Source: Desulforudis sp. (GTDB lineage: Bacteria; Bacillota; Desulfotomaculia; Desulfotomaculales; Desulforudaceae). Taken from it: a DNA stretch of 33,689 nucleotides. Below are positions 20,194-31,683 of this stretch, one piece after another. The translations under genes and the position numbers were made by a program. The notes under the pieces were generated by a model. The model worked only from the letters and a program-made list of their open reading frames with translations, was not told the DNA's origin and made no database searches. The DNA is taken from positions 1-33,689 of the forward strand of contig QZIR01000061.1 of NCBI GenBank assembly GCA_003604975.1, given 5' to 3'. Position 1 is the first letter of the stretch. Each line of letters begins with the position of its first letter.

Positions 20194-22137
20194 TTATGAA
20201 CCCGGCTTGAGATAATTCAGCCAGGCCTCGGTGAAGTTGCTGCTGGTCAGTTTCTGCAACCGGTTGATTACCGACAGCGCGTCCTTGAGTACAGCCTGTT
20301 CCCGCTTGCTGAGCTTGGCCGGTGTAATATAGTTGTCAGCCGCCAGACCCTGACGGTGCTTGACAACGTTCTGCCGAATCCGGAACATCATCACCGTCTC
20401 GAAAGAGGCCTGGATGAACTCGGCATCGTCGCGGGGGATCCCACCGCGCTCAACCAGCTGATCCAGCCTGCCAAAGGTCGAAGGTTCGGTAATCTTGTAA
20501 CGCATCGCAAAGACGCGGATACAGTTGACGATATGCGTACATACGCTCGACTTAAGATTTAGTTCGTTCTTGTGGGGACCGGACTTCTCGGTTATGAAGC
20601 CGCCAAGCATGTTCAGCGGAACCCGGAACTGGACCTCGTCGTGGGTCAGCATATGGGTTACCACCGTCTGCCTCTCAAAAGCCTCGAACATCCTCTCCCA
20701 GAGGATCTTGGTCAGGCCCTTGTCACCGAAGATCGGCCGGAAATCAAGGAAGATCGTGAGCATCCGGATCCCTTCCGGCTCGGGGCTGTAAATCCAGCGG
20801 TGCAGGGTGGCGTTCCACTCACTCATCGACCGACACCAGGCGGGATTAGAAGCCACGACGTTCCCCTTGCACTTCTGGAATCCACACTCGGCCAGACTCT
20901 CCACAATTCTTTCACCCAGCGTGAGGAAATACTGCTTTACCGCTTCGGCCTGGTCCGGCTCGGGGTCGGCGTAGACGATCGCGTTATCCTGGTCGGTACG
21001 CAGCGTCTGCTCACGGCGTGCGGCGCTGCCCATGTTCACAAAGCAATATGGTACCGGTGGCGTACCCAGTCCGTCCTCCACCATCTGTTCCTCACAGAGG
21101 TGGACCACCCGGCGGGTCAGCTTGTCATTCAACTCGGCCATGATCTCCATCAGTTCCCGGGTCGGCGCTTTCTCGGTGACCAGGGCGTAGAGGAAATTGT
21201 CCACTTCTTTACCGGTCTCGCACAGACCACCCAGGCTGTGTTCACTCTCAATCCGGTGGGCCACCCACAGAGAGCCGGTACTCTGGGCCTTCAGCAGGTC
21301 GACCAAACTGACGATACCGACCAGCAGGCCGGACTCGGTCACCGTGACGTGTTTTGCACCGGACTTGATCACGGCGAGTAGGGCCTCGTTCAGGAAGGCG
21401 TCTGCGGGCAGGGTTACCAGCTTGGTGTTCAGGACGTCTTTGGCTCTGCGTTCACTGGGGCACAGTCCCTCGGCAAACATCTGACTAACTAGATCACGCT
21501 CAGTAACCAGACCCAACGGCTGTCCGACATCATCAATCACAATCACGGAGCTAATATTGTGTTCCGCCATCAATCCGGCCACGCCGGTGATATTGTCCTC
21601 GGGCCTACAGGTAATAACCGGGCGTGACATTATCTCGCCGACACGCCGTTTGAAAAGGCTGCTTTCCGCACGTGAAAACGTATCCAGGGACTGTTCAGAG
21701 ACAATCTCGTCGTAGAGCATCCTCATCCGGTCCAGCATCACCCGGCTAAAGAAGGTGGCTACCTCCGGATGGTTATGAATCAGGTGTTCAAATATGTCGC
21801 GGGGGATGATCAGACAGGTCAGGGTTTCCTTAACCCGTACGTTACCCGAATAACTGCCGCCGGTGAGAACCACCGTCTCTCCGAAAATGTCATTACGGCG
21901 CCGGTACCCGACCACCGTTTCGACGCCCTTGTCGTTGTTTAGGGTAACCTCAGCTAAACCGTCCAGGACAATGAAGAGCAGACCCAGGCTGGCACCGCCC
22001 CGCCGGAAGATATATGTGCCGACGGGGTACTTACGAATCTCAACTTGAGGCGCCAACTCCTCTAATGCCTCCCAGTTCAATTCCTTAAAGGGAGTAAGAG
22101 CCTTCAGAACCTCAAAAGTGTCTACCTCTTCGTTCAA
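20194..22137 (-). CDS. cNMP-binding/CBS/DUF294 nucleotidyltransferase-like regulator
   Basis: A 647-residue multidomain protein. Residues 1-150 form a cyclic-nucleotide-binding-type domain (PVGTYIFRRGGASLGLLFIV and NDIFGETVVLTGG); residues 165-300 hold two CBS motifs (IMSRPVITCRPEDNITGVAG and VLNTKLVTLPADAFLNEALL). Residues 330-480 carry a nucleotidyltransferase-like DUF294 domain, whose GSAARREQTLRTDQDNAIVY holds the GS and DxD metal-binding pattern, and the rest is the DUF294 C-terminal helical domain. Such GlnD-like proteins sense a nucleotide and may modify a partner, but the substrate is unknown. The TTG start at 22137 has AGGAGG 8 bases upstream. It directly precedes the exonuclease gene. 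Confidence 0.9.
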   Translation of the reverse strand: MNEEVDTFEVLKALTPFKELNWEALEELAPQVEIRKYPVGTYIFRRGGASLGLLFIVLDGLAEVTLNNDKGVETVVGYRRRNDIFGETVVLTGGSYSGNVRVKETLTCLIIPRDIFEHLIHNHPEVATFFSRVMLDRMRMLYDEIVSEQSLDTFSRAESSLFKRRVGEIMSRPVITCRPEDNITGVAGLMAEHNISSVIVIDDVGQPLGLVTERDLVSQMFAEGLCPSERRAKDVLNTKLVTLPADAFLNEALLAVIKSGAKHVTVTESGLLVGIVSLVDLLKAQSTGSLWVAHRIESEHSLGGLCETGKEVDNFLYALVTEKAPTRELMEIMAELNDKLTRRVVHLCEEQMVEDGLGTPPVPYCFVNMGSAARREQTLRTDQDNAIVYADPEPDQAEAVKQYFLTLGERIVESLAECGFQKCKGNVVASNPAWCRSMSEWNATLHRWIYSPEPEGIRMLTIFLDFRPIFGDKGLTKILWERMFEAFERQTVVTHMLTHDEVQFRVPLNMLGGFITEKSGPHKNELNLKSSVCTHIVNCIRVFAMRYKITEPSTFGRLDQLVERGGIPRDDAEFIQASFETVMMFRIRQNVVKHRQGLAADNYITPAKLSKREQAVLKDALSVINRLQKLTSSNFTEAWLNYLKPGS

Positions 22138-25716: not shown

Positions 25717-26631
25717 ATGGAAATTATCGCTGTACACGGCGGGCTTGACACAAGCCGGGACCGCCAGTTCATGGAGGTCCTCGAAGAAGCAGCACAGCAG
25801 GGATACAAGCTCCTGGCCACAGACCGGGTCCAGGCCATGGAAGCCGTTATACGGGTGCTGGAGGATTCCCCGAAGTTCAACTGCGGCTACGGTTCAATCC
25901 TCAACCTTGACGGGGAAGTGGAGATGGATGCGGCCATCGTTGACGGCGTGACCAACCGCTTCGCTGCGATAGCGGCGATACGGCTGGTCAACAACCCGAT
26001 CTCCGTTGCCCGTAGGCTGATGGAGAAAACCGAACAGGTGATCGTGGCCGGCGACGGGGCCGTTAAGTTCGCCCGACAACAGGGCTTCCCCGAGGCAAAC
26101 TGCGTCTCCGAGGAGCAACTCGATGCCTGGCAGAAGGCCAAGGAGAGCCTGGCCCGTGGCGAGACGCCCACCCAGAACTTGTTCACCGGGCTTGAGTATC
26201 ACGCGGATACCGTCGGCTGCGTGGTCTGGGACGGTAAAGGGCTGGGAGCGGCCTCATCAACCGGGGGGTTCTCTCTGAAAATGCCCGGTCGGGTCGGGGA
26301 TACCCCGTGTCTGGGCGGGGGCATATTCGCCTCTCCAACCAGCGCTACGGTCTGTACCGGGGTAGGCGAGGCCTTCATTGAAACACTTACCGCAAAATAC
26401 GTGGATGAGCAGATTGTCAGTGGTCTCCATCCGCAACAAGCGGTAGAGTTTGCCCTGAGGAGGCTGGCCGACTTGAAGGGTACGGAAGGCGGGATTCTGA
26501 CGATGGACGCCGAGGGAAGGATTGGGTCGGCCTTTAACGCGGGACGCTTCCCGGTTGTATTCCTGGTCAACGGTAAGGTTCAGAAGGACTTTAAACCAGT
26601 CAATCTAAAACCGGAGCTGACCCTAAACTAG
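25717..26631 (+). CDS. Isoaspartyl peptidase/L-asparaginase (Ntn-hydrolase)
   Basis: A 304-residue N-terminal-nucleophile hydrolase of the plant-type asparaginase family (peptidase T2). Autocleavage is expected before T165 in YHADTVGCVVWD, the conserved nucleophile, and the downstream STGGF and GRVGDTPCLGGG blocks form the active site. The first part contains FNCGYGSILNLDGEVEMDA, the usual substrate-side region. Such enzymes hydrolyse isoaspartyl dipeptides from damaged proteins and L-asparagine. The ATG has a weak ribosome binding site (GAG about 9 bases upstream), unusual among the neighbours. No close neighbour shares its strand: the gene downstream begins 445 bases away behind a separate promoter. 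Confidence 0.92.
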   Translation: MEIIAVHGGLDTSRDRQFMEVLEEAAQQGYKLLATDRVQAMEAVIRVLEDSPKFNCGYGSILNLDGEVEMDAAIVDGVTNRFAAIAAIRLVNNPISVARRLMEKTEQVIVAGDGAVKFARQQGFPEANCVSEEQLDAWQKAKESLARGETPTQNLFTGLEYHADTVGCVVWDGKGLGAASSTGGFSLKMPGRVGDTPCLGGGIFASPTSATVCTGVGEAFIETLTAKYVDEQIVSGLHPQQAVEFALRRLADLKGTEGGILTMDAEGRIGSAFNAGRFPVVFLVNGKVQKDFKPVNLKPELTLN

Positions 26632-26722
26632 ACCGTTCCAGGATCGTGCTTCAGGAAAATTCGATGTTTTTTGGATTTGTTCTCTATCATTAGTTGCTTT
26701 GTGAATTCCAGGTTTTAGGGGA

Positions 26723-26751
26723 TTGATGAACAATAAGCCCTGGTGTAGAAT
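26723..26751 (+). promoter_or_regulatory. Sigma-A-type promoter of a short transcript
   Basis: A TTGATG -35 box (26723-26728), a 17-base spacer and a TAGAAT -10 box (26746-26751) match the housekeeping consensus at 4/6 and 5/6 positions with the ideal spacing. Transcription would start near 26757-26760. Confidence 0.6.
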
Positions 26752-26757
26752 AGTAAT

Positions 26758-26843
26758 AGAAATAGATGATACGGCTGTCCGGTCGACCTGTACGGGTCAG
26801 TCCGGAAGCGTACAAGGCCCGGCAACACCGGGCCTTAGTTTTT
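26758..26843 (+). ncRNA. Candidate structured small RNA or leader ending in a terminator
   Basis: Downstream of the promoter lies a nested hairpin: ACG/CGT (26771-26773 with 26809-26811) encloses CCGG/CCGG (26779-26782 with 26802-26805) and GACC/GGTC (26785-26788 with 26795-26798) around a 6-base loop. It is followed by a strong terminator. A second hairpin lies outside at 26847-26873 (AACCC/GGGTT and GGGA/TCCC around GGAC). No convincing coding frame fills it. The nearest downstream gene starts 230 bases later, so an independent RNA is more likely than a riboswitch, but a leader with readthrough is possible. I could not match it to any known riboswitch or RNA class by inspection. Confidence 0.42.
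26814..26843 (+). terminator. Rho-independent terminator
   Basis: A perfect 9-bp stem (26814-26822 with 26828-26836) closes a 5-base loop (CAACA) and is followed by TTTTT at 26839-26843. GC-rich stem plus T-run is a textbook intrinsic terminator and ends the candidate short RNA. Confidence 0.85.
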
Positions 26844-27075
26844 CCAAACCCCTGGGAGGACTCCCCAAGGGTTGCCCTGATTAATGGCGCACGATAAGAG
26901 GGAAAGAACCCCCAGATCACGAACTCAGATCAGACTGGTCAGCGGCGTTTTTAGGCCGGCTCAGAAAAAGGAACACGAAGCGGCCTCCAGAGAATGATCC
27001 AGTTAAGAAAACAAGGCGGTTTAGAAAGCCCCGAGCTGCCTGGAAAACGGCAGCTCCCGCAATAGAAAGGACAGC

Positions 27076-28149
27076 ATGGTTATCAAGGTAATGACCCGGA
27101 ACCTCTACTTCGGGGCCTCTGCGGCCCGTCTAAAGGTCTCGTCGCTTCCGGACGTCCCGGCACGGGTCGCCGACATGTGGCAGATGATCCTGGCTAACGA
27201 CTTTCCCGCCCGGGCCAAGGCGTTAGCCAACGAAATTGCGGTCAAGCGACCCCATCTGGTCGGCTTACAGGAGGCCACCCTCTTACGTGTCCGGTCGCCC
27301 GGGCTCTTCTTGAAGAGCAGTTGCCGGCACATCATGAGCCCAAACAAGCTCCTGCAGTGTCACGGGTTGTTAATGTACCTCTTGTTCAGACGCAACAAGA
27401 GAATAGCCACAACCGTGGCCTGCGATTTTCTGGACATCCTGCTGGGTGAACTCCGCAGTCGCGGACTCGGGTACACTCCGGCCGCCGTGTGGACAGGCAC
27501 CGACATTGAAGCGCCGAGCGCGACCGGCGACGATGTCCGGCTGACGGACCGGACGGTGATAATTGCCCGGTCCGACCTTCCTCCCGGGGAATTAACTCTG
27601 TCGAACCCGCAGACGAAAGACTTCACCAGTACTTTTCTCCCGTTGATCGGCGGGCTTTTGACCATGCCCATCAGGCACGGATGGGCGTCCGTCGACGTGA
27701 CCATCCGCGATCGGTCATTCCGCTTTCTTGCCACCCACCTGGACGCTGATTCCCCTGCCATCCAAGCGGCTCAGGCGAGGGAGCTCCTGCGGGGACCGTG
27801 CCAAACCGAGCTTCCCCTGGTACTGGTCGGAGATTTCAATTCCAAGGCCGTCCGCAGCGGCGAAGGCACTTACGACCACCTCATCGCCGGAGGTTGTGTC
27901 GACGCTTGGACGGTGGCCGGTTCGGGCGACGGTTTCACGGCGTGGCAGGACGAGAATCTGCTCAACCCGGTTTCCCGCCTGGACCGGAGGATTGACCTGA
28001 TTCTCTACCGCGGGGGGTTCCAAGTCCAGGGCGTGGAAGTAGTGGGGGCGGAACCTGACGACCGTATTCCGGAGGGCCTGTCACCGTCCGGCCGTCTCTG
28101 GCCCTCTGACCACGCCGGGGTCGTCGCCACCCTGCGCCCGCCCCCCTAA
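27076..28149 (+). CDS. Endonuclease/exonuclease/phosphatase-family hydrolase
   Basis: A 357-residue protein of the EEP fold (DNase I-like). The family markers are N9 in MTRNLYFG, E in LVGLQEATL (about residue 66), the THLDAD region with its histidine, LVGDFNSK (GDFN), the RRIDLIL region and SDHAGVVA at the end. These form the metal-dependent phosphoesterase site; substrate could be DNA, inositol phosphate or lipid head group. There is no signal peptide or membrane segment. Between about residues 78 and 110 (nucleotides 27307-27405) a basic, cysteine-containing segment interrupts the region following the catalytic glutamate, which looks like an insertion or an old double frameshift. An AAGGA lies about 5 bases before the ATG. 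Its 3' end overlaps the pseudogene on the other strand by 4 bases. Confidence 0.85.
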   Translation: MVIKVMTRNLYFGASAARLKVSSLPDVPARVADMWQMILANDFPARAKALANEIAVKRPHLVGLQEATLLRVRSPGLFLKSSCRHIMSPNKLLQCHGLLMYLLFRRNKRIATTVACDFLDILLGELRSRGLGYTPAAVWTGTDIEAPSATGDDVRLTDRTVIIARSDLPPGELTLSNPQTKDFTSTFLPLIGGLLTMPIRHGWASVDVTIRDRSFRFLATHLDADSPAIQAAQARELLRGPCQTELPLVLVGDFNSKAVRSGEGTYDHLIAGGCVDAWTVAGSGDGFTAWQDENLLNPVSRLDRRIDLILYRGGFQVQGVEVVGAEPDDRIPEGLSPSGRLWPSDHAGVVATLRPPP

Positions 28150-28719
28150 AAGCAGCATCCGGCCCTGCTGTTCGACCCAGGCTCCGTGCTGCCGACTGAC
28201 ACGGTTCCGGCCCTTTTTTTCGCTCTGTAAAGGGCCTCGTCAGCCGCATTGAACACCTCGGCCACCCTCTGGTGTTGATCGCCTTTTGGCCGATGCTGAC
28301 CGTGATGTTGACCTTGCCCCCGGAGCCTTTACCCGTATTTCCCTGCTGGGGTTTCTTCTTCGGGCGGTCTTTCCCTCGCAGGGTGAAGCCTCTCTTAGCG
28401 ATCGTCTCTCTCAAGCGCTCAAGGTGGGCTGCGGCTTCGTCCAGTTTCTTCCCGGGGAAGAGGATTGTGAATTCCTCCCCGCCATAGCGGAACGCCTTGC
28501 CTCCGCCGGAAACCTGAGCGATCGCGAAGGCGATATACTTCAAGGCTTGGTCCCCCACATTATGTCCGTATCTGTCGTTGAACTGCTTAAAGATGTCGAT
28601 GTCCACCATCACAATTGTGTAGTCTCAGCCTGCAGGTGCAACCACAACAGGCAGGAAACCAACAGCAGTACCAACGGTACAGATAGCAGATACAGTGTTC
28701 TGGCGACGCCTTCTTTCAT
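28146..28719 (-). pseudogene. Decayed membrane-anchored GGDEF diguanylate cyclase
   Basis: On the minus strand an ATG at 28719 reads MKEGVARTLYLLSVPLVLLL and a few more hydrophobic residues, one membrane helix, and stops after about 36 codons. A different frame, 28612 onward, encodes MVDIDIFKQFNDRYGHNVGD with the metal-binding D and then GGEEF within FRYGGEEFTILFP. It reads ITVSIGQK and shifts again near 28275; the next frame gives AADEALYRAKKRAGTVSV, the usual GGDEF C-terminus, ending at TAG 28146. Two frame breaks and a missing middle show a once functional c-di-GMP synthase (GGEEF core) now decayed. Its former N-terminal helix suggests membrane anchoring. It lies immediately downstream of the LysM gene on the same strand. 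Confidence 0.72.
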
Positions 28720-30874: not shown

Positions 30875-31683
30875 CTATCTTTTTTTGAACAGTATGGTCA
30901 ACACCCCGAGTCCGGATGGCCGTTCTTTCCTAAAGCCGACCCCTGATTGCCGGGGATGCAGCCAGGATCGACGACGGGAACGAGCTTTTTGGTCCGCGAA
31001 CCGGTAACGGTTTTGCTGATCCACCACGTGCCATCCGCGCTCACAGGTGAACCGGATGACCACGATGCCGGTAACGCCGCCTTTGCAGTCCAGGCTCGAT
31101 CCTTGCGGCCCACAAAGGCCCCTTTTACGAGACGGACCGTGGCTCCCTTTTCAATCAGTTTCCTGATGTCTTGCTCACTGCGGTACAGGTAAGCCTGGAT
31201 GGTCACCGCCGCCGGGACGTTCTCCTGCAAGAGCAGGTAGTATAGATCGAGCGTCTTCTGAACGTACGAATAGTCTTCCATATCCAACATCAGCCGTTTT
31301 CCGCTTTCACCCGGCTGTTCCCGGACCAACCGCCCGATACGCATCGCGTGGTCTTGACCAAATTGGTCTTTCACCGAATAACCGACCTGCGTTGGATCTA
31401 TGGAAACGTGGAGCTCCAGTCTTGTCTGTCCCAGAGTACCGATCACAGCCATTATTTGCTTTACGTTTTCTACTATTAGTTCCGGCGAGTCCACATATTC
31501 GCCCAGGTAATAGAGGGATGTTTGGAATCCCGAGTCTTTCAGCTGCATTGCCTTTTCTTTGGCGGCTTTTACATCACGGCCTCCGACGAATTGGGTAGCC
31601 AGTCTTGAGGCCAACCGATTTCTCTGCATATGCCTTCTTACCAACCCATTTGTCAGGGCTGTGAGCAGAACGGATAAACCACG
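30875..31683 (-). pseudogene. Broken proline dehydrogenase
   Basis: From a GTG at 31683 the minus strand encodes LTNGLVRRHMQRNRLASRLA then QFVGGRDVKAAKEKAMQLKD and LHVSIDPTQVGY, LMLDMEDYSYVQKTLDLYYL and TIQAYLYRSEQDIRKLIEKG, ATVRLVKGAF; these are the TIM-barrel blocks of the proline dehydrogenase (ProDH/PutA-type) family, with K and R of the substrate site in the last. After KGAF the frame continues for about 75 codons without similarity to 30898, and a different frame reaching 30875 ends in KERPSGLGVLTILFKK, a possible C-terminal helix remnant. About 70-100 residues of the barrel, including the final FAD-binding strands, are lost. The enzyme would oxidise proline to pyrroline-5-carboxylate; this copy should be inactive. 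Confidence 0.7.

Follow-up and report, generated by a model that had tools for sequence, protein, structure and literature searches.

The window analysed here, 33,689 nucleotides of a Desulforudis contig, carries at positions 26723-26843 a promoter, a bulged hairpin (HP1), a perfect 9-bp hairpin (HP2) and a U-run. An asparaginase gene (PF01112) lies upstream, a position already remarked on in the first-pass annotation and kept within the genus, where the copy in the same-genus relative G001 (locus L003) also stands downstream of an asparaginase gene. The next gene after the element encodes an endonuclease/exonuclease/phosphatase in the window, and in G001 it is a convergent 93-aa frame. Beside the endonuclease/exonuclease/phosphatase gene, a GGDEF-domain frame on the minus strand (27962-28612) is without its N-terminal part and has an apparent frame shift near its C-terminal end; an intact 334-aa homologue occupies the equivalent place in G001 (L003:51-1055), and the window frame appears to be a decaying gene. 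A proline-dehydrogenase-like frame, recognised by eye further along the minus strand (30898-31644), likewise looks frame-shifted in its last part. Less than 7 kb from the element there is a cNMP-binding/CBS/DUF294 gene, both in the window (20194-22137, minus strand) and in the same-family genome G002 (L017:10179-12116), hinting at shared ancestral surroundings.

Promoter and leader

The sigma-70-type promoter TTGATG-17-TAGAAT (26723-26751, plus strand) proposed in the first-pass annotation is present, its hexamers TTGATG (26723-26728) and TAGAAT (26746-26751) being separated by 17 bases, and a site scan returned it as the sole sigma-70-like site in 26500-27200. Because 0.5 such sites are expected by chance in that interval, the window promoter is weak evidence when taken alone. 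Among the eight copies of the element described below, however, seven have sigma-70-like promoters 13-31 bases upstream of the core, in forms such as TTGACA-17-TAACAT, TTCACA-18-TATATT, TTAACA-17-TACAAT and TTGACA-18-TAAAAT, among others. Set against shuffled upstream sequence, this placement has a combined p of 2e-6, a crude measure that comes from simple hexamer matching in the copies other than the paralogue L002, whose promoter is unclear. The promoter of the G006 copy has a weak -35, that of the G050 copy ranks best among five sites in 16 kb, and that of the G002 copy is one of the two best among six sites in 14 kb.

Around the -35 hexamer of the window lies a conserved block, TTAGGGGATTGATGAACAA (26715-26733, plus strand), all 19 bases of which are the same in the G001 copy, while the spacer that precedes it shows 41% identity to that copy. 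Part of the block, GATGAACAA, recurs in the paralogue L002 at roughly equal spacing, and the whole is possibly an operator or other regulator site, or else an extended -35. From the position of the promoter we infer that transcription would start about 7 bases past the -10 hexamer, giving a short A/G-rich 5' leader (26758-26767, plus strand); leaders are purine-rich, and TAGAA-like, in most copies. HP1 begins 16 bases downstream of the -10 hexamer and HP2 immediately adjoins it.

Copies, conservation and distribution

Eight copies of the element occur in seven genomes, two of them in the window's own genome and one in each of six relatives, so that carriers make up seven of the 113 genomes of the order. 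A DNA search of the own genome recovered the paralogue L002 (G000:C15:21479-21574, 81% identity over 95 bases), and the same approach applied to 100 relatives recovered copies in G001, in G002 and G006 of the same family, and in G066 of another family. A covariance model (R1) built from these six copies and run on the 113 genomes of the order added two more, in G058 and G050 (E values of 5e-11 and 1e-6), both of them first reached through this model. The convergent metallo-beta-lactamase-fold gene (PF13483) that adjoins the G066 copy also adjoins each of these two, a synteny of which the search made no use.

Comparison with G001 sets the element apart from its surroundings. The core (26768-26837) is identical at 67 of 70 positions (96%), against 79% identity in the asparaginase gene upstream, 76% in promoter and leader, 41% in the spacer between gene and promoter and 28% past the tail, and the promoter hexamers are preserved on either side of a spacer that is mostly altered. 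A core at 96% beside a gene at 79% and flanks at 28-41% points to selection on promoter, HP1 and HP2 as one conserved unit. The hairpin that the first-pass annotation had placed beyond the terminator (26847-26873), with a suggested role in read-through, falls outside this unit: it folds no better than shuffled sequence (z -0.31) and lies where identity to the closest relative drops to 28%, so it is best regarded as a chance, unconserved structure, and the proposed role is unsupported. In G002 the element is directly followed by a long perfect inverted repeat (L004:1604-1642, GCCGTTTAAACCCACCGG...), which is absent in G006.

Further searches delimit the RNA to what looks like a single lineage. 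The exact HP2 23-mer occurs in the 113 genomes at the eight element sites and nowhere else, always directly 3' of HP1. A sensitive model search of 17 near genomes yielded no additional member, a phylum sample of 398 genomes yielded no member outside the family itself, and plasmids gave no match. Weak model matches in other genomes (18-26 bits) proved on inspection to be ordinary terminators or coding palindromes, and the GGCCCGG-N5-CCGGGCC palindromes found elsewhere in non-carriers lie inside coding frames. One phage match is a chance piece within a tail gene; a Flavobacteriales pattern match (L025) and five viral-contig matches are plain terminators that share the stem, HP2 by itself accounting for about 30 bits, and the match at L075 looks coding. 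The equivalent places in genera g3 and g30 were read, where readable, as a check for mere divergence, and the element is absent from them, which indicates that it was either lost or acquired whole.

Folding and constraint of the two hairpins

The predicted 86-nt RNA has a folding energy of -37.8 kcal/mol (z -4.1), equalled by none of 200 shuffles. Single-sequence features of this kind are not rare, and the case is therefore decided by conservation across copies. Each of the eight copies, folded individually, gives the same two hairpins. HP1 (26768-26813, plus strand), as defined by these folds and by covariation, is made up of the pair G26768-C26813 and the helices TACG/CGTA, CT/AG and TCCGG/CCGGA, with single-base bulges on its 5' strand at A26769, G26774 and G26777. 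The nested stem that had been read by eye at 26771-26811 is thus real, though its limits lie further out and the 5'-strand purine bulges had been missed. Across copies these single unpaired bases are mostly purines and constant in position, whereas the upper stem and loop differ in both length and letters.

In an alignment of the eight sequences (A4), standard pairs fill 99.4% of the pair cells, 5 of the 12 HP1 pairs show two-sided compensatory changes (A-U/G-C, U-A/C-G, C-G/G-C and G-C/A-U) and the covariation score is matched by none of 500 shuffles, although A4 was itself adjusted to the structure and these counts are biased towards it; structures slid along the same alignment are 19-52% paired. 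RNAalifold, run on A4, returned identical helices and, in the uppermost part of HP1, three further covarying pairs. Three positions of HP1 include G-U pairs; read from the other strand these would become A-C, so that the plus strand is fixed and structure at the level of RNA is indicated. The covariation check proposed in the first-pass annotation has thus been carried out on homologues: the HP1 stem covaries, and both stems are conserved in relatives.

HP2 (AAGGCCCGG CAACA CCGGGCCTT, 26814-26836, plus strand) is constrained differently. Its perfect 9-bp stem and five-base loop are invariant, with 9 of 9 pairs unchanged in every copy (Fisher p 0.007 against HP1), a comparison that draws on few independent lineages because five of the eight sequences come from one family. 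In the window the stem is followed by AGTTTTT, whose U-run (26839-26843, plus strand) completes the intrinsic terminator described at the outset. The stem is found in all eight copies and the U-tract in four (the window, L002, L003 and L005); in L004, L006, L012 and L013 HP2 is followed by AGTCTTGG, ACGATTCT, CGGTTCAG and AGCATTTG, respectively, and a terminator scan run on two of these four reported neither as a terminator. Since HP2 is invariant even though half of the copies are without a U-tract, its sequence appears to be the conserved property and the hairpin to be more than a terminator. Nor is it a recycled or favoured terminator, for the palindrome GGCCCGG-N5-CCGGGCC is found in its own genome solely at the element.

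A perfect palindrome of fixed sequence is also what would be expected of a dimer-binding site, and the locus might be a DNA-level element, such as a protein operator or a recombination or replication site, that owes its RNA-gene look to that palindrome. We judge this very improbable: the G-U pairs and one-strand bulges of HP1 mark a plus-strand RNA, promoters precede seven of the eight copies, and the palindrome, confined as it is in its own genome, always comes directly after HP1. Still harder to credit is a short protein gene, for which a frame at 26766-26897 (MIRLSGRPVRVSPEAYKARQHRALVF..., faintly antitoxin-start-like) is open in the window, in L003 and, with GTG, in L002. From its start to HP2 the frame measures 48, 46, 45 or 38 bases according to the copy and so is not kept, changes occur as compensatory pairs, and the long L003 version is antisense to the convergent 93-aa frame, all of which agrees with the earlier impression that no convincing coding frame spans the region. 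The locus is, in our assessment, very probably a stand-alone RNA gene.

Mode of action and relation to known RNAs

Gene context bears directly on whether such an RNA would act in cis. Some 120 bases downstream of the paralogue L002 come arsR (PF01022) and a heavy-metal P-type ATPase gene, on the same strand, and the copies in G002 and G006 (L004 and L005) are flanked on one side by a LysM gene and on the other by a DUF2301-like membrane gene with a cation-efflux gene behind it, again on the same strand. These loci would suit a riboswitch-like leader or attenuator in which HP1 senses a signal and HP2 terminates transcription ahead of the downstream gene. In G001, G066, G058 and G050, however, the next gene is convergent (in the last three, the metallo-beta-lactamase-fold gene), leaving nothing to control in cis; the downstream genes are unrelated, and a mutually exclusive antiterminator helix, sought across copies, was found in no consistent or conserved form. 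An attenuator is accordingly improbable. Since the neighbours change from genus to genus and four loci have a convergent next gene, no single downstream gene is served, and a constant cis target is excluded for most copies. The changing context argues instead for an RNA that acts in trans.

The main rival to recognition by a protein is a base-pairing sRNA, probably helped by Hfq, whose leader or HP2 loop would pair with mRNAs while HP1 and HP2 provide stability and termination. A stand-alone, promoter-driven form is typical of Hfq-helped sRNAs, and the element resembles such intergenic RNAs in its length, its own sigma-70-like promoter, its compact hairpins, a host that encodes Hfq and, in four of eight copies, a U-run; the TAGAA-like, A/G-rich leaders of most copies would also fit. 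It is the presence of Hfq in all carriers that gives this reading its standing, but Hfq is encoded in all 14 genomes examined, carriers and non-carriers together, and does not discriminate. Unlike Hfq-type sRNAs, the element has no conserved unpaired seed: the two families share no conserved unpaired stretch long enough to be of use, and the HP1 loop differs in sequence and length in A4. Its terminator-position hairpin is, moreover, sequence-invariant and retained even where the U-tract is missing, an invariance that stability does not account for because compensatory changes would serve equally well. We regard base pairing as an unlikely, if serious, alternative. Fixed letters in paired and bulged positions, with no unpaired seed common to both families, favour protein recognition over antisense pairing, and protein recognition stands in our estimation at an even chance of being the way in which this RNA works.

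Other known systems offer partial likenesses. As in the titrating RNAs of the CsrB/RsmZ type and in 6S RNA, what is conserved is structure of a kind that a protein would read, but the element has neither repeated GGA loops nor the large central bubble of 6S, and no Rfam match to either. Like bacterial Y RNA, the partner of Rsr/Ro60, it is a short bulged stem from an intergenic gene; unlike Y RNA, it has no Rfam match and no TROVE protein in its host. TROVE (PF05731) was found in none of 14 genomes, including all seven carriers, while a control match was obtained in Deinobacterium, and a Y RNA identity is excluded by this absence. TROVE and Hfq were the two candidate protein partners tested for co-occurrence, the one being absent and the other present with and without the element. 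Proximity of some copies to cation-efflux or P-type ATPase genes recalls the NiCo (czcD) and other metal riboswitches, from which the element differs in having no Rfam match and in that half of its loci have a convergent next gene. An integron attC site, considered for the one-strand bulges, was dropped by eye for want of GTTRRRY core sites. Rfam 15 gave no match at the gathering threshold and nothing credible at loose thresholds, where a minus-strand hit to a plant-virus pseudoknot (18 of 50 bits) is attributable to chance. The first-pass annotation could assign no known class and thought of an undescribed small RNA; with conserved, covarying stems and no Rfam match, this is still the best reading, and the element looks like a new RNA family, absent from those catalogued, of a known kind, the bacterial sRNA.

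On the preferred reading, which we consider about as probable as its negation, the element is a new, lineage-restricted, stand-alone trans-acting sRNA that works most likely through a protein recognising HP2 and the bulged HP1. An RNA of some 86 nt would be made from its own housekeeping promoter, with a predicted end at or just past HP2. HP1 would supply a stem in which one strand carries conserved single-base bulges, topped by a free-form upper stem-loop, and HP2 a hairpin in which the sequence, and not pairing alone, is fixed. A putative protein would read HP2 together with the bulged lower half of HP1, and the RNA, acting in trans, may serve as a decoy that titrates this inferred regulator, or as a scaffold. 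More tentatively, and in our view rather unlikely, the element could represent a new class of protein-recognised sRNA among Firmicutes of the deep subsurface, whose sequence-locked hairpin at the terminator position, retained where the U-tract is missing, would capture a regulator.

Desulforudis-like bacteria inhabit deep rock, in places almost alone. To our knowledge, little has been learnt of their RNA regulation, and a search of one library of papers returned none joining D. audaxviator with a small RNA. A conserved, duplicated, promoter-linked predicted RNA with a sequence-locked terminal hairpin would offer an entry point to RNA regulation in Desulforudis, and the invariance of HP2, which as a mere terminator could drift freely, makes a specific prediction of a binding partner.
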